Source: a virus
Strand: one strand, 5' to 3'
Virus record (IMG/VR): IMGVR_UViG_3300021960_000139
Location: 1-45,900 of that record
DNA length: 45,900 nt
How positions within the stretch are numbered: position 1 is the stretch's first letter; each line of letters opens with the position of its first letter. Positions 952-40,382 of the stretch are shown here, piece after piece. The translations under genes and the position numbers were made by a program. The notes beneath the pieces are model-generated. The model had not been told where the DNA came from and searched no databases. It worked only from the letters and a program-made list of their open reading frames with translations.

Positions 952-1203
952 ATGGCAACTTACGCATCTCTTCGATATAATTTTTCAGGTACAGGTTTAA
1001 CAGGTGTTAACAAAACAGCAAATAACCTAAATGATGTTGCTTCAGCATCAAGTGCTAGAACAAATCTGGGTGTCGCAATTGGTAGTGATGTCCAAGCTTT
1101 CATTTCTGCAACTGCAGGAACCAATGCTAACGGCACACGTACGGTAAGCACATCAGATCCAAGTGGTGGATCAAATGGTGACATTTGGTATAAATATAGC
1201 TAA
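952..1203 (+). CDS. Small tail fibre-associated protein
   Basis: An 83-residue protein. I chose ATG 952, right after the previous stop and with GGAGAAA about 8 bp upstream; a longer upstream ATG in the same frame would overlap the fibre gene. The sequence LNDVASASSARTNLGVAIG followed by SDVQAF matches a short module (DVASxxxARTNLGVAIGxDVQA) common in phage tail-fibre proteins. The C-terminal DPSGGSNGDIWYKYS is also fibre-like. It may be a separate chain of a fibre encoded as two or three polypeptides with the genes on either side. Confidence 0.6.
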   Translation: MATYASLRYNFSGTGLTGVNKTANNLNDVASASSARTNLGVAIGSDVQAFISATAGTNANGTRTVSTSDPSGGSNGDIWYKYS

Positions 1204-1209
1204 TGCATA

Positions 1210-2130
1210 ATGCCAGTTTATGTTAAAGATGGAGGCGTTTGGCGTACAATAGATAGAGTCTATGTACGTGATGCTACATCCTTCACTAACAAAACGGTTA
1301 ATAATGTTTACATAAAAGATGGTGGAAGCTGGCGTGAAGTTTTTATCATTTATGATACCACTTCTTTTTCTACAACGACAGGCACTGTTCCCGTTCCTTC
1401 TTTAGCAAATGCTATACATGTACAATATGCTGCTGCCGCAGGCGGTGGTGGTTCTGGTGGTATGGATTATGATTCGAGAGGATATGAAGATGCAGGAGCT
1501 GGTGGTGGTTCTGGTGCTTTTATATCAGATAAAGTTTTTTCTGTTACAGGTGGTGAAACACTAACAATAGTAACTGGTACAGGTGGTGCTGGCGGTGATC
1601 CTATTGGCGATCCTCCAGGTGATGGAACATCTCGTAGTGGCGGTAATGGAAGCGCTGCAACAACGGTATCAGGCACCTCTTCAGGATCTTTATTTAGTTT
1701 AGCTGTTGGTATTGGTGCAACTTCAACGTACAACTCTGTTGCCGTTGCTGGAACAGGAGGATTAGCTACTATTTCAGGTACGACTTTAACATCAGGAACT
1801 ACTGTTGATGGTTTAGATATTACAACATTTACTTCTGGACCTTTATTAGCATTTAATCAATCAGGTAATGGTGCATCAGGATCAAACGGAAACAGATGTT
1901 CTGGTGACAACTGTAATGTTGGCGGTGCTAATGGTGCTGATTCTTACAGTGGTAATGTAGCAGGAGGAACAGGCGGTGACGCAGGTAATGGTGGTTCTTA
2001 CGAACCAGGTCAAGTTGGTAATCCTGGCACAAGAGGATCAGGCGGCGGCGGTGGAGGAACCGAACAAGGCGCTCCTGGCGGTGCTGGCGGCAACGGTGAA
2101 ATTAATTATAGATTTATAAGGATTGCATAA
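1210..2130 (+). CDS. Glycine-rich tail protein, candidate receptor-binding adhesin
   Basis: A 306-residue protein. The N-terminal 50 residues hold two copies of a V(Y)VKDGGxWRxxxxVYxRD-like unit (MPVYVKDGGVWRTIDRVYVRD and VNNVYIKDGGSWREV), a motif seen in phage tail-tip proteins. Residues about 80-300 are extremely rich in Gly, Ser, Thr and Ala with GGGGSGG and GGxGG stretches. This resembles polyglycine-helix adhesins such as the T4-type gp38 class, although homology to gp38 is not shown. The stop overlaps the next start by one base. A host-recognition role is inferred from composition and from its place beside fibre genes. Two cysteines in NRCSGDNCNV could form a disulphide. Confidence 0.55.
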   Translation: MPVYVKDGGVWRTIDRVYVRDATSFTNKTVNNVYIKDGGSWREVFIIYDTTSFSTTTGTVPVPSLANAIHVQYAAAAGGGGSGGMDYDSRGYEDAGAGGGSGAFISDKVFSVTGGETLTIVTGTGGAGGDPIGDPPGDGTSRSGGNGSAATTVSGTSSGSLFSLAVGIGATSTYNSVAVAGTGGLATISGTTLTSGTTVDGLDITTFTSGPLLAFNQSGNGASGSNGNRCSGDNCNVGGANGADSYSGNVAGGTGGDAGNGGSYEPGQVGNPGTRGSGGGGGGTEQGAPGGAGGNGEINYRFIRIA

Positions 2131-3959
2131 TGTTAACAAAATTAAACTTAGCTCCTGGTATAGATAAACAAGATACAGAATACGGTGCTGAAGGTCGTTG
2201 GACCGATGCACAAAATGTACGATTTCATTATGGCTTACCACAAAAAATAGGTGGTTGGACAACAATTATTACAGACACCCTTATTGGTGTTGCAAGAGAT
2301 CAACACACATGGACAGATCTTAATGGTGTACGGTACGCGGCCATCGGCACAGATAGAAAATTATACATTTACACAGAAGGTACAGCATACGATATAACAC
2401 CTATACGTCGTGGTCCTACATCTTTAACAAATCCTTTTACAACAAACGGCACTAACAACGTCACCGTAGCGGATACAGGACACGGTGCTATACAAGGTGA
2501 TTTTGTAACCTTTGATTCTTTCTCTGCTATTGACGGTTTAGATATGAATAATGAATTTGAAATTACATCTATTACAGATGCTAACTCTTATGTTGTAACA
2601 CATACAGATACAGCGACAGGCTCTACAGCAGGAGGCGGTGGTACAGGTAATGCAAATTATCAAATTAGTATTGGACAAGAAACATCAACCTATGGTTATG
2701 GTTGGGGTACTGATGCATGGAATGTTGATGCTTGGAACACACCACGATCTACATCTACCGTAACGATTGATGGTCGTAACTGGGCTTTTGATACGTTTGG
2801 TGAAGACTTAATTGCAACCGTACATAAAGGATCTACTTATCGTTGGGATACATCATCAGGAACCTCAAGCAACAGAGCTGCTGTTATTTCACAAGCTCCT
2901 ACAAGTTCACGGTTTAATCTTGTTTCTATGCCTGATAGACATGTCTTTTTATTTGGTACAGAAACAACAATTGGTACAGCTTCTACGCAAGATGATTTAT
3001 TCTTGCGGTTTTCCTCCCAAGAAGATTATACGGATTGGACACCTGCTGCAACAAACACAGCAGGTTCCTTCCGTATTCAAGATGGATCAAAGATTGTGGC
3101 AGCAACAAGATCACGTAATGCGGTGTTAGTTTGGACAGATACATCCTTGCACGCATTACAATTTGTTGGTGCACCTTTTACTTTTTCTCTTGTACAATTA
3201 GGTGGTGGATGCGGTGCTGTTGGTGTTCATAGTGCTGTTGATATTAACGGTGTTGCGTATTGGATGTCACAAAATGCTTTCTTCTTATACGATGGTACTA
3301 TTCGTAAACTACCATGTTCGGTGCAAGACTTTGTCTTTGAAGATTTTAGCGCGGCTCACCAACCAGAAACATATGCAGGTGTTAATTCAGAGTTTAATGA
3401 AATTACTTGGTTTTATGCGTCTGCTGATTCAAACTTTATTAATAGATCCGTAACGTATAATTATTTAGAAAAGACATGGTATACTAATACATTAGCAAGA
3501 ACAACATGGACAGACTACGGTGTCTATCAACAACCTTATGCAACATTATATAGCCCTACATCTTTACCAACAACGCCTACTGTATTAGGTGTCACTGCTG
3601 GTGCTACCACCTATTATCAACAAGAAACAGGAACTGATGATAACTTAACAGCAATGACAGCTTTTATACAGTCAGGTGATTTTGATATTCAAGACGGACA
3701 ACAATTACTACATATCAGTCGCGGTATTCCTGATTTTAAAAACCAAACAGGTAATGCAACAATTACCATGAACTTTAAAACATATCCAAATGATACATCA
3801 TCTACTACTGTTACTAGAACCGTTAATTCTAGCACGACAAGATTTGATACACGTGGTAGAGGTAGACAAACAAATTTAAAAATTGAAAGCACGGATCTTG
3901 GCGCAAACTGGCGATACGGTACATTGCGTTTAGATGTGCAACCAGATGGAGGTAGATAA
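2130..3959 (+). CDS. P22 gp10-like tail/head stabilisation protein
   Basis: A 609-residue protein with the N-terminal signature LNLAPGIDKQDTEYGAEGRW followed by DAQNVRFHYGLPQKIGGW. This pattern is characteristic of the phage stabilisation protein family (P22 gp10 type), which forms part of the tail hub/needle complex that plugs the portal. The rest is beta-rich, as expected of a propeller-type structural protein. It fits the P22-like portal encoded at 35468. It overlaps the genes on each side by one base, so it is translated in the structural operon. Family assignment rests on the N-terminal motif and on length; I am fairly sure of it. Confidence 0.75.
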   Translation: MLTKLNLAPGIDKQDTEYGAEGRWTDAQNVRFHYGLPQKIGGWTTIITDTLIGVARDQHTWTDLNGVRYAAIGTDRKLYIYTEGTAYDITPIRRGPTSLTNPFTTNGTNNVTVADTGHGAIQGDFVTFDSFSAIDGLDMNNEFEITSITDANSYVVTHTDTATGSTAGGGGTGNANYQISIGQETSTYGYGWGTDAWNVDAWNTPRSTSTVTIDGRNWAFDTFGEDLIATVHKGSTYRWDTSSGTSSNRAAVISQAPTSSRFNLVSMPDRHVFLFGTETTIGTASTQDDLFLRFSSQEDYTDWTPAATNTAGSFRIQDGSKIVAATRSRNAVLVWTDTSLHALQFVGAPFTFSLVQLGGGCGAVGVHSAVDINGVAYWMSQNAFFLYDGTIRKLPCSVQDFVFEDFSAAHQPETYAGVNSEFNEITWFYASADSNFINRSVTYNYLEKTWYTNTLARTTWTDYGVYQQPYATLYSPTSLPTTPTVLGVTAGATTYYQQETGTDDNLTAMTAFIQSGDFDIQDGQQLLHISRGIPDFKNQTGNATITMNFKTYPNDTSSTTVTRTVNSSTTRFDTRGRGRQTNLKIESTDLGANWRYGTLRLDVQPDGGR

Positions 3960-4126
3960 TGGCTAAAATAGCAACAACAAGATTACCTGATGCAACGCCT
4001 GACTATCAGGCAGAACAGTTTAACGCGCTTATTCGTATTCTTGAACAAATTACACAACAATTAAACTTTGGTTTTCAACAAGACATAAAAGACGAATCAA
4101 CGGCTAGGAGCTGGTTCCGTGTCTGA
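3959..4126 (+). CDS. Small hypothetical virion-region protein (55 aa)
   Basis: ATG 3959 overlaps the stop of the preceding gene (TAATG). The product begins MAKIATTRLPDATPDYQAEQ and is predicted mostly helical. The last codons overlap the next gene, whose GTG start lies at 4119. Similar short proteins lie beside gp10-like genes in marine phages. No function is recognised. Confidence 0.55.
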   Translation: MAKIATTRLPDATPDYQAEQFNALIRILEQITQQLNFGFQQDIKDESTARSWFRV

Positions 4127-4469
4127 TATTTTTATTAGTAAATCAGCAGTGGGCACAGGTAGTGCGGTAGCAACATATACCGTACCAACAGCCGACTCAG
4201 GAGCCGTGCCTCCCGTCCCACCGACCACGGCCATTATTAAAAGTATTCGTCTATCCAATCAAACAGGTGGTGCGGTAACAACAACAGTATCTGCTTTTGA
4301 TAACAGTGAATCGGATAGAGAAATACCTTTGTATATAAACAGTTTAGCAGATGCTTCAGAAATAGAAGTATTATCAGAAGGCGTTCCTATTGTATTAGAA
4401 CAAGGAGATGCTATTAAGTTAACAGGATTAAATGTAAGAATATTAATTAGTATAATGGAGATAACGTAA
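4119..4469 (+). CDS. Hypothetical small structural protein (116 aa)
   Basis: The start is GTG 4119, chosen because AGGAG lies at 4106-4110 with suitable spacing and because the coding overlap is only 8 bp. The product (SDIFISKSAVGTGSAVATY...) is beta-rich, with the pattern IIKSIRLSNQTGGAVTTTV. This resembles small virion or connector proteins of tailed phages (compare the genes at 43992 and 44308). Its stop overlaps the next ATG by one base. The role is inferred from style and context. Confidence 0.55.
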   Translation: MSDIFISKSAVGTGSAVATYTVPTADSGAVPPVPPTTAIIKSIRLSNQTGGAVTTTVSAFDNSESDREIPLYINSLADASEIEVLSEGVPIVLEQGDAIKLTGLNVRILISIMEIT

Positions 4470-4729
4470 TGTCAGAGATAGGTAAAAAAGTACAAGACGC
4501 TGAAGTTATTGGCTACGAGGAAGTAGACGGAAATAAAGTTCCTGTTTTAAAACCAGAGGTTTGGGAAAAAGTGTATTGTAATAATTGTAGTAATGAAGTT
4601 GATTCAGAAGAGTTAGCAACAGGTGATTGTAGCGACTGTGGTAATCCTTGGGCTTCAACGAAGACCAAAGATGTTACCATTCGCGTTGTTAAGATGCCAG
4701 ACGTTTTTGGATCTGGAGGAGAACTTTAA
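4469..4729 (+). CDS. Small zinc-ribbon protein
   Basis: An 86-residue protein. Residues about 36-60 contain the pairs CNNC and CSDC, separated by about 16 residues, which is a classic zinc-ribbon layout. It is preceded by a Glu/Val-rich segment (EVIGYEEVDGNKVPVLKPEV). It is the last plus-strand gene of this structural run, and its stop overlaps the stop of a minus-strand gene by 4 bp. Zinc ribbons in small phage proteins often mediate protein or nucleic-acid contacts, but no specific role can be assigned. Confidence 0.6.
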   Translation: MSEIGKKVQDAEVIGYEEVDGNKVPVLKPEVWEKVYCNNCSNEVDSEELATGDCSDCGNPWASTKTKDVTIRVVKMPDVFGSGGEL

Positions 4730-4881
4730 TTTTTCCTGCACTCGCAGTTTTCATCACAGTGACTTGAGTTGTCTTTCTGATGTTTTTCTAATTCTCTTTC
4801 CATAGTCATTAAACGTTCGTGATAGCGCCCCACCTTGTCAGCGAGGACAGCTATGGCTTTTAGTACTTCTTGATTTTCCAT
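4726..4881 (-). CDS. Small coiled-coil, Cys-rich tail protein (51 aa)
   Basis: Read on the minus strand, ATG at 4881 is preceded by a good ribosome site (CAGGAGACATT). The product is MENQEVLKAIAVLADKVGRY, then a Glu/Lys-rich helix (ERLMTMERELEKHQKD), then a cysteine-rich end (HCDENCECRKN). The end could bind a metal or form disulphides. It is convergent with the zinc-ribbon gene, sharing 4 bp, and follows another minus-strand gene 94 bp upstream. Function unknown. Confidence 0.6.
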   Translation of the reverse strand: MENQEVLKAIAVLADKVGRYHERLMTMERELEKHQKDNSSHCDENCECRKN

Positions 4882-4975
4882 AATGTCTCCTGTGATTTGT
4901 ATTTTGGTGAGAACCTAATTTAAACATATTTTCTCTTCAATCAATATTCTTTTTTAAAATTGTTTTCTTGACAAG

Positions 4976-5257
4976 CTATTCGTGTTCTGCGTAGTCAACG
5001 GATAAGTATTCTATTTTTGTTATCCACCCTTTCGGTATAGCAATAGCGCCACCACCTGATATGTCATCTTTGTCTTTACTATAAGATCGCATAATAATTA
5101 CTTTCTCTTTATTATTGTGAATTAACCAACCAACTTCTTGACATGTTGCTAAAGGAGCGTTCATAACGTCCTTTATATCTAGCCATCCTGTCTCTGTATC
5201 ACGGGCATCGAGCCACGTTACACGGACCATTGGTACTTTCTTAATGTCAAAGGTCAT
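4976..5257 (-). CDS. Conserved phage hypothetical protein (93 aa)
   Basis: The product contains MVRVTWLDARDTETGWLDI near its start, then EVGWLIHNNKEKVIIMRSYS and an IAIPKGWITKIEYL ending. Small proteins of this layout (VxVxWxDA ... VGWLI ... IPKxxI) are widespread in phages as uncharacterised host-takeover-type genes. With the 51-aa gene downstream it forms a short minus-strand operon that diverges from the promoter at 5266-5294. An internal Met at residue 10 could also be the start. No enzymatic motif is visible. Confidence 0.6.
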   Translation of the reverse strand: MTFDIKKVPMVRVTWLDARDTETGWLDIKDVMNAPLATCQEVGWLIHNNKEKVIIMRSYSKDKDDISGGGAIAIPKGWITKIEYLSVDYAEHE

Positions 5258-5265
5258 ATTTCTGA

Positions 5266-5294
5266 TTGCACATTACACGAAATTTGCCTATAAT
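5266..5294 (+). promoter_or_regulatory. Sigma70-type promoter for the internal-protein operon
   Basis: TTGCAC (5266-5271), a 17-bp spacer and a perfect TATAAT (5289-5294) give a strong housekeeping-type promoter. It points at the 5376 gene and would leave a 5' leader of about 75 nt. It lies in the divergent gap between the minus-strand pair and the large plus-strand structural operon. Confidence 0.7.
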
Positions 5295-5375
5295 CATATA
5301 AATAATTAGGCTTACTTCTCAAGGCCAGCCTCCTTGCCATAGACAATCACATAAATTGCAGTTAATAAGGAGATT

Positions 5376-6308
5376 ATGCTCAAAGGATTAAAAGGGATTT
5401 TAGAAAAAGCTGTGCAAGTTGCAGCACCTATTATCGGTGGATCTATGTTTGGCCCATTTGGAGCAGCAGCAGGATCAGGAATAGCATCCCTACTTACAGG
5501 AAACAAACCAAAAGATGCTTTAATTTCAGCAGGCTTATCTTATGGTGGTTCCAAGCTTGGCTTTTTACCAGGGGGTGGACAAACAGGCGGTGTAAAACAA
5601 CCAATGCAAGAAGTTATAGCAGCTTCTTCAAGGCAACCATCTTTGTTTGGATCAAGTCCTTCAGATATTATACAAAAAGCACAACAAGCTGATAAAAAAG
5701 GTATTTTAGAAAATTTATTTGGAAAGACAGTAGACTTTCTTGGAAAAAAATCAGGCAAGGACGGAGAAGGACCATCCTATGGCGCACAAATTTTAGCAAC
5801 AGGTTTACCCGCTGCTTTATCTTACATGGCAGCTTTAGAAGATGCAAAAAAAGCAGGAGTTGATGATCCAAGTGAATACATGAGTGCGGTTGATAAATTA
5901 TATGGTGGACAGTTTGCTCCTCCTCCAGAAGATAGAAGAATTAAGAATTTACTTTTTCAAGGTATAGGTGGTGACGGTCAACCTATTTATGCAAATCAAG
6001 GCGGTATTATGAATGCGCAACAACCCGTTCAATATTCCGCAGCTACAGGACAAGGTATTATGGGTATGGCAAAAGGTGGAGATGTATTTCCAAGAAAAAC
6101 AGGTCAAATAGAAGGACCTGGTACAAAGACAAGTGATTCAATACCTGCAATGTTAAGTGATGGCGAGTTTGTACAACGAACTGACGCTGTTAATGGTGCA
6201 GGGGTAATGATGGGAGCAACAAATGCAAAAGAAGCAAGAGAAAAAGGAGCGGACTTTATGTATGCACTACAAGATAAACTTGCTAAAATAGGTCAGAAGG
6301 TAGCGTAA
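5376..6308 (+). CDS. Virion-internal protein candidate with GG motifs (310 aa)
   Basis: Start ATG 5376 has AAGGAG 4 bp upstream. Residues 1-60 are Gly/Ala-rich and hydrophobic (AAPIIGGSMFGPFGAAAG), able to contact membranes. Residues about 232-235 hold AKGG, followed by a Pro/Gly segment IEGPGTKTSDSIPAML, then SDGEFVQRTDAVNGAG. This sequence recurs in marine phage tail or internal proteins. The stop overlaps the next ATG by 1-2 bp, and it heads a run of five overlapping large genes. In a short-tailed phage such a run usually encodes ejection proteins. That role is inferred from place and composition. Confidence 0.55.
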   Translation: MLKGLKGILEKAVQVAAPIIGGSMFGPFGAAAGSGIASLLTGNKPKDALISAGLSYGGSKLGFLPGGGQTGGVKQPMQEVIAASSRQPSLFGSSPSDIIQKAQQADKKGILENLFGKTVDFLGKKSGKDGEGPSYGAQILATGLPAALSYMAALEDAKKAGVDDPSEYMSAVDKLYGGQFAPPPEDRRIKNLLFQGIGGDGQPIYANQGGIMNAQQPVQYSAATGQGIMGMAKGGDVFPRKTGQIEGPGTKTSDSIPAMLSDGEFVQRTDAVNGAGVMMGATNAKEAREKGADFMYALQDKLAKIGQKVA

Positions 6309-7243
6309 TGGCAGAACAGACAACAACACAAATATCAAGAGAAGCTCCATATTTGGAGGATTATAGACGTCGATTATTAGAAGGTACATTTAAATTAGCA
6401 GATCAACCTATTCAACAATATCAAAGAGGCATTGCAGGTTTTGCACCAACAGAAGCGGCAGCTTTTACTGAAGCAGCAAGACAAATGGGCATTGACCCTA
6501 CAACAGGTGCACGAACAGGTGTAGCATCTTTTGAACCTTTTATACAACAAGCGCAAGCAACGATGGGACTTGGTATTCCTTCTCTTCAACAGGCACAAAC
6601 ACAATATGACCCTTCAACAGGTAATAGACAAAATTTCATGAATCAGTATCAGGCTGACGTAACTCAACAAGCATTAAAACAATTAGATGAAGAAGCGGCT
6701 AAAGCAAGTGCGCAATTAGCAGGACAAGCAACAAAAGCAGGTGCGTTTGGTGGTGCAAGATACGGTGTACAACAAGCAGAATTGGCAAAAAATTTACAGG
6801 ACATAAAATCAAAAAGAATATTTGAAGATTTATCAAGAAACTTTATGCAAGCACAACAAGCGGATATTGCAACAAGTGAGTCAGCAAGAGCAAGACAACT
6901 GCAAGCGGCTCCTGTATACGGTCAACTTGGTCAAGGTATTGGTCAATTAGGTGCACAACAATTTGGTCTTGGTCAACAAGGCATTGGAAGCTTATTAAGC
7001 GCAGGTCAAACTCAACGTACAAGAGAGCAAGCGATTGAAGACGAGTTATTTAGATTTAGAACAGGAGCGGCTCAAGAACCACGAACAAGATTAGGATTTA
7101 CAGCAGATATACTAGCGGGTGTGCCTTCCGTTCAACAAACGGTTACACAACAGCCTATACCATATACTAATCCTTTAGCAGCAGCTGTGGGATCAGGTCT
7201 CACAGGACTTGCTGGTTTAGGTGCTTTCTATAAAGGATCATAA
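6308..7243 (+). CDS. Gln/Ala-rich internal virion protein (311 aa)
   Basis: Very rich in Gln, Ala and Gly with long predicted helices (YQADVTQQALKQLDEEAAK, ASAQLAGQATKAGAFGGARY). It begins with an extended PYLEDYRRRLLEGTFKLADQP segment. Helical Gln/Ala-rich proteins just downstream of a portal-plug region resemble the ejection (internal core) proteins of podoviruses such as P22 gp7/gp16/gp20, but no direct homology can be claimed by eye. It overlaps both neighbours by one base. Confidence 0.55.
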   Translation: MAEQTTTQISREAPYLEDYRRRLLEGTFKLADQPIQQYQRGIAGFAPTEAAAFTEAARQMGIDPTTGARTGVASFEPFIQQAQATMGLGIPSLQQAQTQYDPSTGNRQNFMNQYQADVTQQALKQLDEEAAKASAQLAGQATKAGAFGGARYGVQQAELAKNLQDIKSKRIFEDLSRNFMQAQQADIATSESARARQLQAAPVYGQLGQGIGQLGAQQFGLGQQGIGSLLSAGQTQRTREQAIEDELFRFRTGAAQEPRTRLGFTADILAGVPSVQQTVTQQPIPYTNPLAAAVGSGLTGLAGLGAFYKGS

Positions 7244-30315: not shown

Positions 30316-31758
30316 ATGAATTCAGAAAAAATCCCAACGGAATTATTAAAATATGAATTAAGGAAAATGCAAATAAAAGTGGCAGAGGAGTCCCGTTCCT
30401 CCTTCCTAACTTTTGTAAGAAAAGTTTGGCCAGAGTTTGTTGCAGGTTCCCATCACAAAATTATTGCACAAAAATTTGAAGACATTTCACGTGGAAAGAT
30501 AAAACGATTAATTGTTAATATGCCACCGAGACATACAAAATCTGAGTTTGCTTCCAATTTATTTCCTGCATGGATGTTAGGGCAAAAACCTAAATTAAAA
30601 ATTATACAAACTACACACACAGCAGAGCTATCATATAACTTTGGTAGAAAGGTTAGAAACTTATTTGATCAACAGGAATTTAAAGATGTTTTTCCAAATA
30701 GTGCTTTATCTCAGGATTCTAAAGCATCTGGTAGATTTAACACTAAAGTAGGTGGAGAATACTTTGCAGCAGGGGTCGGTGGTGCGATAACAGGGCGTGG
30801 TGCTGATTTATTAATTATTGATGACCCACATTCCGAGCAAGATGCTCTCTCACAAACAGCCATGGACAACGCCTATGAATGGTACACATCTGGACCTAGA
30901 CAGCGTTTGCAACCAGGCGGAGCCATAGTTATAGTTATGACCCGTTGGTCTACAAAGGATCTTACAGGTAAATTATTAAACGCACAAACTAACGAAAATG
31001 CCGATCAGTGGGAGGTGGTCGAGTTTCCTGCTGTTTTGAATGACAAACCGTTATGGCCACAGTTTTGGAAGATAGAGGAATTAAATGGTGTAAAAGCATC
31101 GCTGTCCGAACAAAAATGGCAAGCACAATGGCAACAACAACCAACATCTGAAGAAGGTTCGATTATTAAACGTGAGTGGTGGAAAATGTGGCCAAAAGAT
31201 GACATCCCTCCTTTGATGCATGTTATACAAAGTTATGATACCGCATTCAGTAAAAGAGAGACAGCAGACTTTAGTGCCATAACGACGTGGGGTGTATTTA
31301 AACCCGTGGAACACGGCCCACCGCACATTATACTTTTAAAATCTAGAAAAGGCCGATGGGACTTTCCTGAGTTGAAAGAAGTTGCGTTAGAAGAATATAA
31401 ATACTGGGAACCCGAAACAATCTTGATCGAAGCGAAAGCAACTGGTATGCCCTTAACACAGGAGCTACGTCAAGTAGGAATTCCTGTAGTAACTTATACG
31501 CCTAGTAAGGGCAATGATAAGCATGTACGTGTAAACTCCGTAGCTCCCCTTTTTGAAGCGGGACAAGTATGGGCTCCTGACGAACGTTGGGCAGAAGAAG
31601 TTATTGAAGAATGTGCCGCTTTCCCTTATGGTGAGCATGACGATTTAGTCGATTCAACAACACAAGCGTTGTTGCGATTTAGACAGGGTAACTTTATCAG
31701 TCTAGAGTCTGATTATGTGGATGAACCACGATACATTGAACCGAGAGAGTATTATTAA
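30316..31758 (+). CDS. terL: Terminase large subunit
   Basis: A 480-residue packaging motor. The ATPase has a variant Walker A MPPRHTKSE (69-77), Walker B LLIIDDPH (165-172) and the coupling segment IVIVMTRWS (about 204-212). The RNase H-like nuclease has SYDTA (306-310), ILIEAKATG (369-377) and HDDLVD (441-446), supplying the acidic metal ligands. It pumps DNA into the prohead through the portal encoded at 35468. There is no Shine-Dalgarno before ATG 30316, and the promoter is almost on top of it. Its stop overlaps the next ATG. Confidence 0.9.
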   Translation: MNSEKIPTELLKYELRKMQIKVAEESRSSFLTFVRKVWPEFVAGSHHKIIAQKFEDISRGKIKRLIVNMPPRHTKSEFASNLFPAWMLGQKPKLKIIQTTHTAELSYNFGRKVRNLFDQQEFKDVFPNSALSQDSKASGRFNTKVGGEYFAAGVGGAITGRGADLLIIDDPHSEQDALSQTAMDNAYEWYTSGPRQRLQPGGAIVIVMTRWSTKDLTGKLLNAQTNENADQWEVVEFPAVLNDKPLWPQFWKIEELNGVKASLSEQKWQAQWQQQPTSEEGSIIKREWWKMWPKDDIPPLMHVIQSYDTAFSKRETADFSAITTWGVFKPVEHGPPHIILLKSRKGRWDFPELKEVALEEYKYWEPETILIEAKATGMPLTQELRQVGIPVVTYTPSKGNDKHVRVNSVAPLFEAGQVWAPDERWAEEVIEECAAFPYGEHDDLVDSTTQALLRFRQGNFISLESDYVDEPRYIEPREYY

Positions 31759-34700
31759 TGGATCAATACGAAGATATAGATATTTTTGAAATTGACGAGG
31801 CATTACCACCATCAAAAGATGTAGTGGATATGGATTCAGGTTTTGAAAAATTAGGCGAATTTATGACAACGCCAGGAACTAATTATCCTAAATTTCTTAG
31901 CCCTATGTACAGAGCCATAGCTCAAGGAACCGATAAAGTGTATGATTTTAGTGAACGACTCAAGGAACTCGGCCCACTGACCAGACAGATGTTACCAGGT
32001 GGTAACATTATGTATATGATTGGTCAGTATGGTATTGGAGAAAATATTCCAAAAACTTTTGCAAAAGCGGAATTAGGTGAGCCTATTACACCCCTTGATG
32101 GGTTAGAAGCTTCTCTTTTAGCTTTGGATTTAGGTGGTGTGTATGCAGGTGGAAAAGTATTAGCTAAAGGAGCATATAATAATATTATAAAAATGTTATC
32201 GAAAAAAGGTGTGTCAGAAGAAGCTGCCGCTAGTCTTGCAACAAAAGCAGTTGTATCAGATCCTAAACTAATTGATGAGTATGCAGGTGCAAAAGATATT
32301 GAAGAGTTGTCTGATGAAGCGAAAGACAAACTTGGTGTAGGAGCTATAGTTTCTCCTGATACAAAAAATAATAAATTTTTTGGATCTTATTATTTAGATC
32401 AAGATATTGATTACACCTCTCCTCCGAAAGATCCAATGGGAGAAAAAATAAAACCTACATCTATTGCAATTAATGATGCCATGGCATCAAATCCAGGTGG
32501 CTTATCTACAGCAAAAGAATTACTAGAAGAGTTAGGAACTGATCCTGATACCGTTTCTATTAATGCTGCTCAAAAAGGAGATCGACGTGCTGCTGATATA
32601 GCAGGAGCTGGAAAAATAAAAACAATAAAAAATATTCGTCATGACGGAAATGCTAGCTTGTATAAAAAAGCGACACAAAGAAAAACTGATTCTGAAATGG
32701 AAAGATTAGCAAGTAATCCTGTTATTAAAAAAATATTTGAAAAAGAAAAATTAATTAAATCACATGCTTTAGAACAAAGTGCTGTTAAAGTTTTACCTGG
32801 AAAATTTAATACACCAAGAGATTTTTCTATTTATGAAATGATACCTCAAGACTTAATGGCTACAGTAAAATTAGGTAGATTAGAAGATATGGATCCTACT
32901 AAACCACAAGTTTTTTCTACTCAGGACAGAAACATGAAACATAAAGCTATTGGTGCAGCAATTGTAAGTAATTTAATAGATAAGTATAAAGTATTGGGAT
33001 ATGAATTTAAACCGAATAAAAAAAATTTAGGAGGAGCATGGACTTTTAATGAAGAATTAATATTACCTTTACCAGAGAAAAAGAAAACATTAGAGTCTAT
33101 AAATAAAAATATATCAACATTAGAAAAGCAATTAAAAGAATTAAAATTAGAAACAATGTTTTATGATCCTACAAAAGACAGATTGGTATTTTTTGGTAAA
33201 GGGCCTGAAAGTTTAACTGATTTAAAAAAAGACGTTAAAAAAAGAGGTTTTGCTTACGGCGGAGAGGTAACCGAGGACCTCGATATCTTTGAAACGCCAG
33301 AAGATTCTTTACCCGAAGGATCATATGAAACAGCAAATCTTATGTTACCTCTCTTTAAAGCTTTTGGTAAAGCACCTGTTAATGAGGTTGCACCAATACC
33401 AACACCAAAAGAAAAATTATCAAATCCAACAAAGAAACAATCGCAAAGTTTAGAAACAGAAAAAGCTAAAAGAGCAGAGGAAGATATATTTGATCCTACA
33501 CCTAATGAACAAGTAGAATTAGATCCAACAATGCCTGTTGAGGTTACACCATTAACAAACCAACCAATGACGTCTGTGTTTTATTCAGACATAGAACGTG
33601 CAATGACGAATGCTCCAGAAGAGTTTGCAAACAAACAAGAGGTTCTTGATTTCTTAAACAAAAACAGAATTAAAAAATCCGAGGTCGACGATTATCGTAT
33701 CGCGGCCCTTCTTAAATTATATGATGATGCTTCTCCTATACCTAAAACAGAAATTCTTTCACAAGTTAGATCAGCACCAATCAGTGGTATGCGAGTACAC
33801 GCAACAGGCTCGGGGTCCGAGATCATTAATCCAAATGGCGAGAAAAGCACACGTTATTCAGGATACTTTGAACCTGGTTCTATACCAGATACACAACGTG
33901 AGAGAGTTTTATATATTAACAGAGATAAATTACCAGGTGACACAGGCAATTATCCGCAGTCCATGTTTGGTGGAGAACGAATACAGCGTCATGAATTCGG
34001 TATACCAAATGAAGAAGATACTTACATTGTCGGTTGGACGCGGCTCTCGGACCGTTATGGATTTGTGCCACCAAAGGTAGAAGGACCACAAACAAAAATA
34101 AATGTAAGTAAACTCACAAAAGAAAAAACAAAAAATGACCGAAGTTTGCAAGGTTTATATGCGGAGGCAAAAAGTAAATTAGAACGATTAGCTAATCAAC
34201 GAGGAATGAGTCAAAATGACATTAATGATTTATTGATTGATTTTGGTTCTGATACTCCCAAACTATCTGTCATAGCAAAATATGCTGACCAATTAGATGA
34301 GATAAGCCCAGGTTTGGTGAATCAAATGGATGAGCTCGTTGTTAAAAATAACGCGTTACAAGAACAGATAACCAAAGCATCGGGCGTTGATCCGAGCGGC
34401 GTGGTTCGTGTAACATTTGCCGATGAGATACAATCCGATTTATTACAAGCAGCGGCAGGGCGTAAACAACAACTGGCCGCGGCCCTTAAAAAAATACAAG
34501 AAGAAGGGGCAGCAAATACAAATTTAGAAGGATTAAACCGCGTAGCGCAGGCAACAATAGATTTCTATGAAAAAAATAAATCCGTCTTTAGGCCGCTGAC
34601 GAAAACAGAGGGTGAAGTAAACGTTATAGCAGAACGTATTAATAAACTAGAAACGGAGGTGGATGATATTGTCAATAACTACATTGCAACAAGAGAAATA

Positions 34701-35465
34701 GATCAACCAGAAATAGATCGTTTAGCAGGATTGTTGAATGATAATATTAATACCATGTTAGATGAAGTATTATCCGTTGACTCTAATACAATGGCAGGAC
34801 TCTTTCCTGATTTACCATTTAAGAATAGAGACGAGTGGGCAGATGCGTTAATTAAAAAAGATCTCTACGAACTAGCATACAGAAAGTTTGTCTTAAAAGA
34901 TCCTGATGCGTCATCGTATTATGCGGTGTCACCATCAAAATATGTCAGTAACCGATATAATTTTAAAGGAGATGCTTCGACACCAGCAGCCGATAGAGCA
35001 GCTGATAAACAACGACGCTTTGATGCTTTTAAACGAAATGGTCAATTTATAGATTCACAATACAAAGGTATTGGTATGGACGAGTTTTATGGGGGCCCTA
35101 ATGCTGTTGATGAAAGCGGAAAACACTATACCTCGACGCTAGAAAAGATTTTGAAGAAACAAGCACAAAGTAATAATTCAGAAATTATTACCATGCCTGT
35201 ACAATTAAAAAGTGGAAAAGGAGCAACCCAATATCGTGTCACTGATCAAAATGGTAATATGGTAGCAACATTAACCAATGAAGATCAAGCAAGAGAACTA
35301 CTTGTATCAAATCCAAATTACAGAATTCAGCCTATTTCCATACCCAACAAAAAAGACATGGAGCCAGTTTTTGCTATTAAAATTACTCCTGAGATGTTAG
35401 AACCATATAAAACACACAAAGCGCAAGGTGGACTTGTCGAGCATATTGATATATTTGAGGTATAA
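31758..35465 (+). CDS. Giant multi-domain protein, polyvalent-like, perhaps a fusion (1235 aa)
   Basis: Placed between large terminase and portal. A DIFE motif occurs three times: EDIDIFE (5-11), EDLDIFE (about 506-512, after FAYGGEV) and EHIDIFE at the very end after KAQGGLV. The middle copy looks like the end of one protein and the start of another, so the gene may be a fusion or duplication. The second half has VTFADEIQSDLLQ (about 885-897). It ends with FAIKITPEMLEPY, and MDEFYGGPN lies before that. EIQSD and ITPEM pairs are features I recall from large polyvalent proteins that phages inject to modify the host. It may thus be packaged and ejected. No catalytic site is proven. Confidence 0.5.
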   Translation: MDQYEDIDIFEIDEALPPSKDVVDMDSGFEKLGEFMTTPGTNYPKFLSPMYRAIAQGTDKVYDFSERLKELGPLTRQMLPGGNIMYMIGQYGIGENIPKTFAKAELGEPITPLDGLEASLLALDLGGVYAGGKVLAKGAYNNIIKMLSKKGVSEEAAASLATKAVVSDPKLIDEYAGAKDIEELSDEAKDKLGVGAIVSPDTKNNKFFGSYYLDQDIDYTSPPKDPMGEKIKPTSIAINDAMASNPGGLSTAKELLEELGTDPDTVSINAAQKGDRRAADIAGAGKIKTIKNIRHDGNASLYKKATQRKTDSEMERLASNPVIKKIFEKEKLIKSHALEQSAVKVLPGKFNTPRDFSIYEMIPQDLMATVKLGRLEDMDPTKPQVFSTQDRNMKHKAIGAAIVSNLIDKYKVLGYEFKPNKKNLGGAWTFNEELILPLPEKKKTLESINKNISTLEKQLKELKLETMFYDPTKDRLVFFGKGPESLTDLKKDVKKRGFAYGGEVTEDLDIFETPEDSLPEGSYETANLMLPLFKAFGKAPVNEVAPIPTPKEKLSNPTKKQSQSLETEKAKRAEEDIFDPTPNEQVELDPTMPVEVTPLTNQPMTSVFYSDIERAMTNAPEEFANKQEVLDFLNKNRIKKSEVDDYRIAALLKLYDDASPIPKTEILSQVRSAPISGMRVHATGSGSEIINPNGEKSTRYSGYFEPGSIPDTQRERVLYINRDKLPGDTGNYPQSMFGGERIQRHEFGIPNEEDTYIVGWTRLSDRYGFVPPKVEGPQTKINVSKLTKEKTKNDRSLQGLYAEAKSKLERLANQRGMSQNDINDLLIDFGSDTPKLSVIAKYADQLDEISPGLVNQMDELVVKNNALQEQITKASGVDPSGVVRVTFADEIQSDLLQAAAGRKQQLAAALKKIQEEGAANTNLEGLNRVAQATIDFYEKNKSVFRPLTKTEGEVNVIAERINKLETEVDDIVNNYIATREIDQPEIDRLAGLLNDNINTMLDEVLSVDSNTMAGLFPDLPFKNRDEWADALIKKDLYELAYRKFVLKDPDASSYYAVSPSKYVSNRYNFKGDASTPAADRAADKQRRFDAFKRNGQFIDSQYKGIGMDEFYGGPNAVDESGKHYTSTLEKILKKQAQSNNSEIITMPVQLKSGKGATQYRVTDQNGNMVATLTNEDQARELLVSNPNYRIQPISIPNKKDMEPVFAIKITPEMLEPYKTHKAQGGLVEHIDIFEV

Positions 35466-35467
35466 GA

Positions 35468-37852
35468 ATGGCCGTAGATAGAAGAATTACAGGGGAACCA
35501 ACAGAATTAGAAGCAGAATCTGTTACTATTGAAACACCTGAAGATCAACTAACAGTTGAAAACATTGAAATGACAGAAGATGGTGGAGCGTTAATTAATC
35601 CAATTGATGAACAGATGGAGGTAGAATTTGATTCTAACTTAGCCGAATATATTGATGAAAAAGATTTGCAAAATATTTCATCTGATTTGATTGGTGAATA
35701 TAAAGAAGATAGTTCCTCTCGAGAAGAGTGGTATGATGCTTACGCAAAAGGATTAAAACTACTTGGATTTAAATATGAAGATAGATCACAACCTTTTCAA
35801 GGAGCAAGCGGTGTAACGCATCCTTTATTATCAGAGACTGTTACACAGTTTCAAGCGCAAGCCTATAAAGAATTATTACCTGCTAATGGCCCTGTAAGAA
35901 CACAACTTATTGGCAAAGCAGATCCTCAAAAAGAACAACAAGCACAGCGCGTGCAGGACTTCATGAATTATCAAATCATGCATGTTATGGAAGATTTTGA
36001 TCCTGACTTGGATCAAATGTTATTTTACTTACCTTTATCAGGATCTAGTTTTAAAAAGGTATACTATGATTCTACAATGGGAAGAGCTGTATCAAAGTTT
36101 ATTCCAAGTGAAGAATTAATTGTCCCTTACACAGCAACTGATTTAGCGACAGCGGAACGTGTTACACATGTTTTAAAAAGAACAGAAAATGACATTCGTA
36201 AACTACAAGTAACAGGTTTTTATCGTGATGTAGACTTAGAGGAATATACCGATTCTGATACAAGCAGTATTCAAACTGAAGTTAACAGAATGGATGGTGT
36301 AAGGGAAACAGGTAGTGGTTATAAAAATGATCAATATACTTTACTAGAAATACACTGTGATTTAGATTTACCAGGTTTTGAAGATCCTGATGGAATTAAA
36401 CTTCCTTATATTGTTACTATTGATGAAGGCTCTGGCAATATTTTATCGGTGTACAGAAACTATGATGAAAAAGATTCTTTAAAAAAGAAAAAACAATATT
36501 TTGTTCATTATAAATTTCTACCTGGTTTAGGTTTTTATGGTTATGGGTTAATTCATATGCTTGGTGGTTTATCAAGAACAGCAACAGCAGCTCTTCGACA
36601 ACTACTTGATGCAGGCACGTTAGCAAATTTACCAGCAGGCTTTAAGGCTAGAGGTTTACGTATTGCTGATGATGATTCTCCAATACAACCTGGTGAGTTT
36701 AGAGATGTAGACGCACCAAGTGGTGACTTGCGTGCAGGACTAATGCCTTTACCTTACAAAGGGGCTGATCAAACTTTATTTCAATTACTAGGATTTGTTG
36801 TACAAGCAGGGCAACGTTTTGCTTCTATTGCTGATCAAAAAATTGGAGATAGTGTAGCAGCAAATGCACCTGTAGGAACAACAATGGCTTTGATCGAAAG
36901 AGGATCAAGAGTTATGAGTGCAATACATAAAAGATTACATTATGCACAAAAAACAGAATTTAATTTACTTGCAAAAGTATTTAGAGATTTTTTACCTCCT
37001 CAGTATCCGTACACACTAAATGATAACGCTGTACCAAGTATCAAAACATCTGATTTTGATGAACGTGTTGATATTATGCCTGTGTCTGATCCGAACATAT
37101 TTTCTATGTCTCAACGTGTTACGTTGGCACAAACACAATTACAAATGGCACAATCAGATCCTAAGTCTCATAACCTATATGAAGCCTATAAAAGAATGTA
37201 TCAATCACTTGGTGTAAAAGATATAGACGCTATTCTTCCTCCACCAAAACCACCAGCACCAAAAGATCCTGGTTTAGAGAATGGTGATTCATTACTTGGA
37301 CAAAAATTACTTGCATTTAGACAACAAGATCATCAAGCACACATTGATGCTCACAGAACATTTATGTCTTCTATGTTGGTACGCTCAAATCCTCAAGCAA
37401 CCATTTTATTACAAGCACATGTCATGGAACATGTTTCTTTATTAGCAAGAGAACAAATAGAGGCAGAAAATGCTCCTCTTATTGAACAAGAAGCAAGAAA
37501 ATTTGGCGGACAACTACCACCAGATCTACAAGCACAGTTCCAAGAAGAAGTTGAACGTCAAGTTGCGACTAAAGTTACAGAATATATTGAAGAAATGTTC
37601 GTTGAAGAGCAAGAAGCAATGGCAGGACAGGGTTCAGACCCACTTGTTGAGCTAAAACAGCAAGAATTACAGCTAAAATCACAAGATATTCAAAGAAAAG
37701 CACAAAATGATCAACAAAAACTTGATTTAGAGGGTGCAAAACTTAACCAAAGTGCAAAAATAGCACAAGATAAGATAGATTCTAACGAAGATATTGCACA
37801 ATTACGTGCGAATGTTAATTTAGAAAAACAAAATGACAAGCGCAACAGTTAA
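35468..37852 (+). CDS. P22-like portal protein
   Basis: A 794-residue protein. EEWYDAYAKGLKLLGFKYED, then FQGASGVTHPLLSETVTQFQ, LPLSGSSFKKVYYD and FHYKFLPGLGFYGYGLIHM-like core (actual VHYKFLPGLGFYGYGL) match the P22-type portal family. The C-terminal 150 residues form a Gln/Glu-rich barrel-type coiled coil (QQELQLKSQDIQRKAQNDQQ). It forms the dodecameric ring for DNA entry and tail attachment. It starts 2 bp after the preceding stop and overlaps the next gene by 20 bp. The acidic 60-residue N-terminus is longer than usual. Confidence 0.85.
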   Translation: MAVDRRITGEPTELEAESVTIETPEDQLTVENIEMTEDGGALINPIDEQMEVEFDSNLAEYIDEKDLQNISSDLIGEYKEDSSSREEWYDAYAKGLKLLGFKYEDRSQPFQGASGVTHPLLSETVTQFQAQAYKELLPANGPVRTQLIGKADPQKEQQAQRVQDFMNYQIMHVMEDFDPDLDQMLFYLPLSGSSFKKVYYDSTMGRAVSKFIPSEELIVPYTATDLATAERVTHVLKRTENDIRKLQVTGFYRDVDLEEYTDSDTSSIQTEVNRMDGVRETGSGYKNDQYTLLEIHCDLDLPGFEDPDGIKLPYIVTIDEGSGNILSVYRNYDEKDSLKKKKQYFVHYKFLPGLGFYGYGLIHMLGGLSRTATAALRQLLDAGTLANLPAGFKARGLRIADDDSPIQPGEFRDVDAPSGDLRAGLMPLPYKGADQTLFQLLGFVVQAGQRFASIADQKIGDSVAANAPVGTTMALIERGSRVMSAIHKRLHYAQKTEFNLLAKVFRDFLPPQYPYTLNDNAVPSIKTSDFDERVDIMPVSDPNIFSMSQRVTLAQTQLQMAQSDPKSHNLYEAYKRMYQSLGVKDIDAILPPPKPPAPKDPGLENGDSLLGQKLLAFRQQDHQAHIDAHRTFMSSMLVRSNPQATILLQAHVMEHVSLLAREQIEAENAPLIEQEARKFGGQLPPDLQAQFQEEVERQVATKVTEYIEEMFVEEQEAMAGQGSDPLVELKQQELQLKSQDIQRKAQNDQQKLDLEGAKLNQSAKIAQDKIDSNEDIAQLRANVNLEKQNDKRNS

Positions 37853-39788: not shown

Positions 39789-39976
39789 AAAATTTTTTTA
39801 CTTATTACAAAAATCAACTAAAAGATAGACAAGACACTATAAGACAGGCTATATGTAGTGGTGTAAAAGATTGGGACGAATATCGGTATTTGACTGGTAA
39901 ACTTCGCGGTCTTGAAGAAACTGAACAGGAACTCACGGACCTGCTGAAGAAAACGGAGCTAGAAGATGACGACTAA
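39779..39976 (+). CDS. Small coiled-coil protein (65 aa)
   Basis: ATG 39779 overlaps the lysozyme stop region by 10 bp. A helical, charged protein (YYKNQLKDRQDTIRQAICSG, GLEETEQELTDLLKKTELED) with an acidic end. No membrane segment or lipobox, so a classical spanin is unlikely. Function unknown. Confidence 0.5.
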   Translation: MRIENFFTYYKNQLKDRQDTIRQAICSGVKDWDEYRYLTGKLRGLEETEQELTDLLKKTELEDDD

Positions 39977-40382
39977 ACCTAAATTGATTGTACCCAAACA
40001 CGTTTGGGATGGTGCAGAAAAACAAAAAGAAAAAAAAGAACTAGAAAAAGTTCCTCAACCAGTCGGTTGGAGAATAGTTTTGTTTCCTCTTAAATTAAAA
40101 GGCAAAACAAAAGGCGGTGTAATTCTTACTGATGAAACAGTAGAAGAATCACAAATAACAACAAACATTTGTAAAGTTTTAAAGACTGGATCTTTATGTT
40201 ATAAAGATAAAGAGAGATATCCTGATGGTCCCTGGTGCAAAGAGGGTGATTGGGTTATAATAACTCGCTATGCAGGATCTCGAGTAAAGATTGATGGTGG
40301 TGAGTTACGTATTATTAACGAAGATGAGATACTGGCAGTCGTTGATGATCCTAGAGACATATTGCCAGCTAACATAATGTAA
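39966..40382 (+). CDS. GroES-like co-chaperonin
   Basis: A 138-residue protein. VGWRIVLFPLKLKGKTKGGV followed by ILTDETVEESQIT matches the GroES start (RVLVxP...KTxGGIxLxD). GDWVIITRYAGSRVKIDGGE and IINEDEILAVVDD match its end. The usual mobile loop lies around KLKGKTKGG. A 45-residue basic N-terminal extension is added, like phage gp31-type co-chaperonins. It should cap host GroEL to fold the capsid protein, in keeping with its place before the head genes. Confidence 0.8.
   Translation: MTTKPKLIVPKHVWDGAEKQKEKKELEKVPQPVGWRIVLFPLKLKGKTKGGVILTDETVEESQITTNICKVLKTGSLCYKDKERYPDGPWCKEGDWVIITRYAGSRVKIDGGELRIINEDEILAVVDDPRDILPANIM

Follow-up and report, generated by a model that had tools for sequence, protein, structure and literature searches.

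We propose, with a rough probability of 0.55, that the 1235-aa protein encoded between the terminase (TerL) and portal genes of a 45.9-kb virus record (the whole stretch of DNA analysed here, hereafter the window) serves an HTVC023P-type marine podovirus as polyvalent-like cargo; it would be packaged in the virion, ejected and active on the host, and its front part is exchangeable. That the protein has a mosaic architecture appears almost certain from the comparison with its relatives. In relatives of the phages that infect the commonest bacteria of the ocean (SAR11 and other Alphaproteobacteria), parts of what is probably an early-infection protein seem to be exchanged, and such exchange beside near-identical flanking genes would be an arms-race signature at entry.

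The TerL-portal protein and its modules

The open reading frame (ORF; 31758-35465, plus strand) starts with ATG, shares one base with the stop of TerL and ends two bases before the portal start. Its placement between a terminase and a portal gene had been noted in a sequence-only reading of the window, and PHROGs and Pfam confirm the identity of both neighbours (Table 1). Scans of IMG/VR for related loci yielded 39 and then 53 loci, and 49 loci were examined for flanks and mosaicism; wherever a TerL ORF (26 loci) or a portal ORF (46 loci) was identified beside the gene, it adjoins it, TerL immediately upstream and portal immediately downstream, with identities across relatives of 84-100% for TerL and 70-100% for portal. 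Among cultured phages, the window TerL is 60-65% identical to those of the Pelagibacter phages HTVC027P and HTVC023P, of 023Pt_psg01 and of phage DSL-LC04, and the portal 49-54%; by sequence, the window belongs near the HTVC023P-type podoviruses. Elsewhere in the window, positions 6308-7243 encode a 311-aa protein that matches PHROG 4287, DNA ejection protein (E 7e-14), and the next two ORFs, of 552 and 1017 aa, are without family matches and may be further ejection proteins; positions 5376-6308 encode a 310-aa protein whose residues 229-283 are common to many tail tape measure proteins, and positions 39966-40382 a phage co-chaperonin GroES (PHROG 3188), which the cultured relatives have too.

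The protein consists of three independently varying modules: N of about 200 aa, C of 720 aa and, between them, M, which has 300 aa in the window and about 490 aa in most other loci. The N type of the window is 88-91% identical in L018, L019, L024 and L026 and is absent or about 30-45% identical in most others. Its M module, M1, was found only in the same-species contigs L002 and L003 and in L069, where a 64% identical M1 sits behind a different N type and ahead of a divergent C. Between the window and L005 the portal is 99% and C 92% identical, N only 34%, and M is unrelated; L045, with a TerL 99% identical to that of the window over 201 aa, has the same pattern as L005. L014 has TerL at 98% and portal at 97% with N and M unrelated, and L004 has C at 97% and portal at 98% with M unrelated. 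The M of L004 is in turn 96% identical to that of L022, whose C reaches only 74%. L022 and L025 agree in N (94%) and C (95%) with M at 26%, L025 and L026 agree in M (96%) with N at 46%, and L014 and L012 agree in M (91%) and C (95%) with N unrelated. Close relatives with near-identical TerL (95-99%) and portal (87-99%) combine N, M and C differently, and, as read from these alignments, cassette exchange rather than drift is behind the combinations. The sequence-only reading had suggested a fusion of two injected proteins, which is right in that separable units are joined at about residue 510, the fronts being exchanged while the rear stays; it understates the mosaic, since the front itself consists of two independently exchanged modules. 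No relative was found to carry the two units as separate genes; two cultured relatives with two genes in the TerL-portal slot may be cited in support of the two-unit idea.

Table 1. Coordinates in the window of the mosaic protein, its flanking genes, modules and motifs.
Feature	Position	Strand	Basis or remark
TerL, conserved left flank	30316..31758	+	PHROG 38, E 2e-111; Pfam Terminase_6C
Mosaic protein, whole ORF, 1235 aa	31758..35465	+	TerL upstream, portal downstream
N module, residues 1-200, begins MDQYEDIDIFE; one of several N types	31758..32357	+	identity among relatives
N-terminal DIFE, residues 8-11	31779..31790	+	motif search, shuffles
M1 module, residues 201-500, rare, exchangeable	32358..33257	+	found in L002, L003, L069
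Joint string GGEVTEDLDIFE, residues 501-512	33258..33293	+	recurs at joint of most relatives
C module, residues 516-1235, divergent FYS/EIQSD family member	33303..35462	+	profile comparisons
FYS...KSE...PIPKTEIL region	33576..33785	+	strongest EIQSDWHQ-family profile match, hhalign 97.8-98.7%
Predicted long helices, residues 779-875	34092..34382	+	AlphaFold, pLDDT about 80-90; family alignment
EIQSD, residues 890-894	34425..34439	+	E, Q, S, D invariant
ITPEM, residues 1209-1213	35382..35396	+	matches 'ditpem' of family profile
C-terminal string GGLVEHIDIFEV	35427..35462	+	at every C-terminus seen, small changes at most
Portal, conserved right flank	35468..37852	+	PHROG 1216, E 6e-58; Pfam SU10_portal

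The DIFE and GG-x-V strings and the TerL-portal slot

Three copies of DIFE, at the N-terminus, near residue 510 and at the C-terminus, and a GG-V segment ahead of two of them had drawn attention to the protein, and both observations stand: the copies begin at residues 8, 509 and 1231, with GGEV (501) ahead of the second copy and GGLV (1224) ahead of the third. Shuffling the protein 100,000 times gave a mean of 0.016 DIFE and never three copies; three are far above chance expectation, and DIFE was not found in the other plus-strand ORFs of the window (13,623 aa). The M-C joint of relatives usually reads GG-x-V...[LI][DN]IF[EQ], and nearly all relatives reaching that far end in GGLVxxIDIFEV(A) or a near variant; exceptions are L063-L065, whose C-terminus reads EDIFE, and L067-L069, in which the GG-x-V of the joint is absent or displaced. 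The N-terminal copy is limited to some N types, and a fourth conserved string, EDIFDPTP (D[IV]FD in relatives), stands at residue 576 at the start of the C module. The N-M joint has no DIFE, and the units bounded by the strings are thus two, N+M and C. Exactly at the joint string, the DNA identity of the window to L004 climbs from about 35% to over 83%; where the M classes of a pair differ (341 pairs), the homologous stretch begins at a median of 29 residues ahead of IF[EQ], against a median of 109 residues, the limit of the stretch tested, in pairs of the same M class. In L007 (ORF 1060-6165, residues 754-958) an extra cassette of ~190 aa, weakly similar to a terminase small subunit PHROG (E 5e-4), lies between two copies of GGMVEDDL[DN]IFE. 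Judging by these comparisons, the DIFE strings mark real module boundaries.

The cultured relatives hold other proteins in the same genomic slot. Two genes, non-homologous to the window protein, occupy it in HTVC027P (gp41/gp42) and 023Pt_psg01; DSL-LC04 has a Pfam PcfJ protein there, with GG-x-V strings near its N-terminus, and HTVC023P a 201-aa protein (gp30), while in Roseobacter phage CRP-901 TerL and portal are adjacent and the slot is empty. None of the slot proteins of the first four phages has detectable sequence homology to the window protein, and several carry GG-x-V strings. The PcfJ protein of DSL-LC04 opens with MDQNLEDIDSLSLVRFAMGGPV followed by GGLVDINSLS, to be compared with MDQYEDIDIFE and GGLVEHIDIFE of the window protein, which hints at, but does not prove, a sorting string common to unrelated cargo.

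GG-x-V...DIFE may tentatively be read as a loading tag carried by each unit, with the position between TerL and portal as a dedicated cargo slot of interchangeable modules, into which new host-acting modules could be plugged with packaging kept, a phage counterpart of polymorphic toxins; we regard this as possible, though short of probable. The string is also a short motif with a directly testable role, and the TerL-portal slot a place to seek cargo in related genomes.

Rather doubtful is the alternative that the strings are recombination remnants only, that is, conserved module-edge DNA enabling cassette exchange and having no role at the protein level. The breakpoints do fall at the string, and the two copies that flank the extra cassette of L007 are near-identical in DNA. 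However, string copies within one gene differ in codons (e.g., GATATTTTTGAA, GATATCTTTGAA and GATATATTTGAG), indicating that the peptide, not the DNA, is what is kept; the C-terminal copy is conserved though nothing is exchanged there, and GGLVDINSLS-type strings recur in the PcfJ protein that DSL-LC04 carries in the same slot. It is also unlikely that the DIFE strings are processing sites, at which a prohead protease would cut after glutamate and part the front and C units. Cleavage by T4-like proteases follows [IL]-x-E, as at ITE-6 and LTE-619 of T4 Alt (PMC5694885), and P1 DdrB and DarA are cut before packaging (PMC5512222); IFE fits this pattern, and residue 11, the joint and the position near the end are where cuts would be expected. 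Many relatives, however, have IFQ at the joint, only one or two residues follow the C-terminal copy, and none of the window's proteins was recognised as a prohead protease. Beta-clamp and SSB-type peptides have as a rule a glutamine or a free C-terminal phenylalanine; DIFE, in which these are missing, was rejected as a peptide of this kind.

As a separate observation, GG-x-[VI] strings are above shuffle expectation in large proteins within or close to the TerL-portal region of several phages, often at domain ends; the regions are L077 10344-12821 (DSL-LC04), L075 6953-11084 (HTVC027P), L076 5472-9574 (023Pt_psg01) and L200 6380-15042 (ct7L0027), with three copies in the DSL-LC04 protein and 3, 1, 3 and 6 in four ct7L0027 proteins.

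The C module and the FYS/EIQSD family

The EIQSD and ITPEM motifs in the second half of the protein had been said to recall large polyvalent effector proteins, and profile searches show that they do indicate homology with a large family of phage proteins. At least 120 viral stretches encode EIQSDWHQ, in an open frame in 120/120 of those listed, and a family profile was built from 120 proteins. It matches the window ORF with 33.7 bits (hmmsearch, E 7.6e-10 in a set of 672); the best reversed decoy scores 6.7 bits, with nearly all C modules above and L063 below it. The matches lie in the order FYS...KSE..., EIQSD...PFK..W and GM..FY...ITPEM, the same motif order as in the family (FYS - EIQSD - PFK..W - GM..FY - ITPEM), and an independent profile-profile comparison (hhalign) of the C module with the family gave probabilities of 98.7% and 97.8%. 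E, Q, S and D of EIQSD are invariant in 26/26 C modules and 40/40 canonical proteins. Seven of the nine residues that are invariant in 40 canonical members align with, and are invariant in, the C modules (S610, E890, Q892, S893, D894, Q897 and P1020); the remaining two, H and R of xHFxxPNVLAHxR, are not aligned automatically, the helical insertion disturbing the alignment, and RHEF...GWTR has both. The profile scores and these seven residues together make the C module a member of the EIQSD family by sequence, and we consider its place in the FYS/EIQSD family nearly certain. It differs from the family in having DLLQ where the others have DWHQ (as does HTVC028P gp34), in a helical insertion of about 100 residues before EIQSD (residues 779-875 in the family alignment with canonical EIQSDWHQ proteins) and in being fused behind exchangeable front modules, and its likeness to the family lies below BLAST detection.

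Viral contigs encode EIQSDWHQ proteins in very large numbers (at least 120, L079-L198) and with lengths of up to 3429 aa; LPD22, a polyvalent domain, is present in one member of 2769 aa. Four canonical members were searched against Pfam and matched none of its models. PHROG 7348, with which the family overlaps, bears the label endolysin; this label probably derives from a different domain and is probably misleading for these proteins. In the cultured Pelagibacter phage HTVC028P, the family member gp34 is flanked by gp33 ('internal virion protein') on one side and by gp35/gp36 ('internal protein A') on the other, and in ct7L0027 an EIQSD protein (UOF80349) is encoded two genes after portal. A C module, 57% identical, also stands at a contig end of the single-cell genome AG-910-K03 (titled uncultured Alphaproteobacteria; L073, G001:C11:26451-27965); it hints at the host group and at nothing further, and the cell was possibly infected, given the phage-like C module on its contig. 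FYS/EIQSD is, in our view, a so far unnamed, widespread phage protein family worthy of a name.

It is improbable that the C module is instead a morphogenesis factor, serving portal/terminase assembly or as an internal scaffold, with the variable front as a tolerated, fast-diverging appendage. Its position between TerL and portal is invariable, it is present in all relatives found and its predicted structure has many helices, all of which would suit such a factor. Yet cultured HTVC023P-type phages (TerL 60-65%, portal 49-54%) hold non-homologous proteins at this place and CRP-901 has TerL and portal adjacent, so that across the group assembly proceeds without need for the protein; moreover, wholesale replacement of modules is not drift, and the wider family of the C module is found elsewhere in genomes, for example among internal virion proteins.

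The AlphaFold model of the C module is of moderate confidence (mean pLDDT 65, pTM 0.55), and that of N+M1 (pLDDT 37) was uninformative and was discarded. One continuous portal-assembly fold, which the sequence-only reading had set against its own proposal, was not obtained, a weak test at these model confidences. With the C model as query, Foldseek found no convincing fold among viral and PDB structures, and a viral match with E 2.5e-4 was set aside, its TM being about 0.1. In VIA-align the top row is the acetyltransferase KacT (Z 8.7, 3.8 A, 137 aligned of 170), the rows over the same sheet are also GNATs (NATA1, Z 5.9 and 5.8), and the remaining rows match only the long helices. A GNAT-like fold is thereby weakly suggested by the model, as a lead and not a result. 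That the EIQSD domain has a GNAT acetyltransferase-like fold modifying host proteins seems to us hardly likely; GNATs are known in polyvalent proteins (PMC5512222), but the model is only moderate, a Z of 8.7 is near the usual background, no GNAT is among the best 50 Foldseek matches and no sequence match was found.

The front modules and the comparison with known systems

Searches of the N, M and C modules against Pfam, PHROGs and PDB sequences returned no significant match, and no enzymatic domain in N, M1 or C, the sensitivity of Pfam being limited for sequences this divergent. BLAST against cultured phages, run at E up to 10 except in the whole-protein search, gave no match for the whole protein, the C module, M1 or an M4 module, and weak matches only for the M2 module of L018. 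This M2 contains GLDHVQPLRFGGSNASDNLRF, which aligns with the HNH motif of ZRANB3; its best PDB match to that HNH endonuclease is not significant (E 0.35-0.94), and an unrelated ephrin receptor scores alike. Among M modules, a plain HNH-type motif occurs only in M2 of relatives. In M1 of the window (model pLDDT 37), profiles recognise no HNH motif; its conserved blocks are RHDGNA, [SG]HALEQSA and FFGKGPESLTDL, as seen in two independent sequences only. M4 keeps R, QIAH and D.S..N...Q...E at 24-30% identity, a seemingly enzyme-like pattern. Nuclease-like activity would be the most likely kind for some M modules, a guess for M2 and a weaker one for the rest. No detectable homology emerged when profiles of M1-M4 and of the slot proteins in cultured relatives were compared, and a common nuclease origin was therefore dropped and is not claimed. 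HTVC027P gp42 (L075 8406-11084), annotated as hypothetical, has an HNH-like VDHFDKVKNNPFSNLRVI / VDHFDKVKNNPFSNLRVIPARINRAAG.

As an ejected, host-acting cargo protein, which is the reading we prefer, the window protein would be made late, alongside the head genes, and would enter the prohead and be retained there via short terminal or joint strings, in the manner of P1 DarB, whose 30 N-terminal residues suffice for capsid targeting (PMC9024508). It would exit with the DNA and act in the newly infected cell, where the function of the C module may be conserved and the activity of the swapped front lineage-specific, directed against changing host targets or defences. An ordinary ejection-protein candidate is present at 6308-7243 (PHROG 4287), so the window protein need not belong to the DNA-ejection machinery.

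Phage polyvalent proteins (Iyer et al. 2017, PMC5512222), which include P1 DarB and DdrB, are very large, consist of many modules, are encoded with the portal-terminase system and are thought to be injected; the window protein is likewise large and modular, and its ORF is encoded beside portal and terminase. Where polyvalent proteins join domains of disparate activity, the window protein has three separable modules, none with a recognised activity domain. The earlier description as polyvalent-like gains from the family homology and from LPD22 in the 2769-aa member, and falls short in that searches of the window protein itself found no catalogued domain, whether enzymatic or LPD. The comparison with polymorphic toxins is partial in another way. 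In those systems an exchangeable toxin module goes with an adjacent immunity gene; no immunity gene was found beside window-type ORFs, portal being directly next in 46/46 loci with a portal ORF, and the pairing is absent here. Like polymorphic toxins, the window protein has a constant part to which exchangeable modules are attached at a fixed joint; unlike in them, it is the N-terminal part that is exchanged, and a phage is the carrier.
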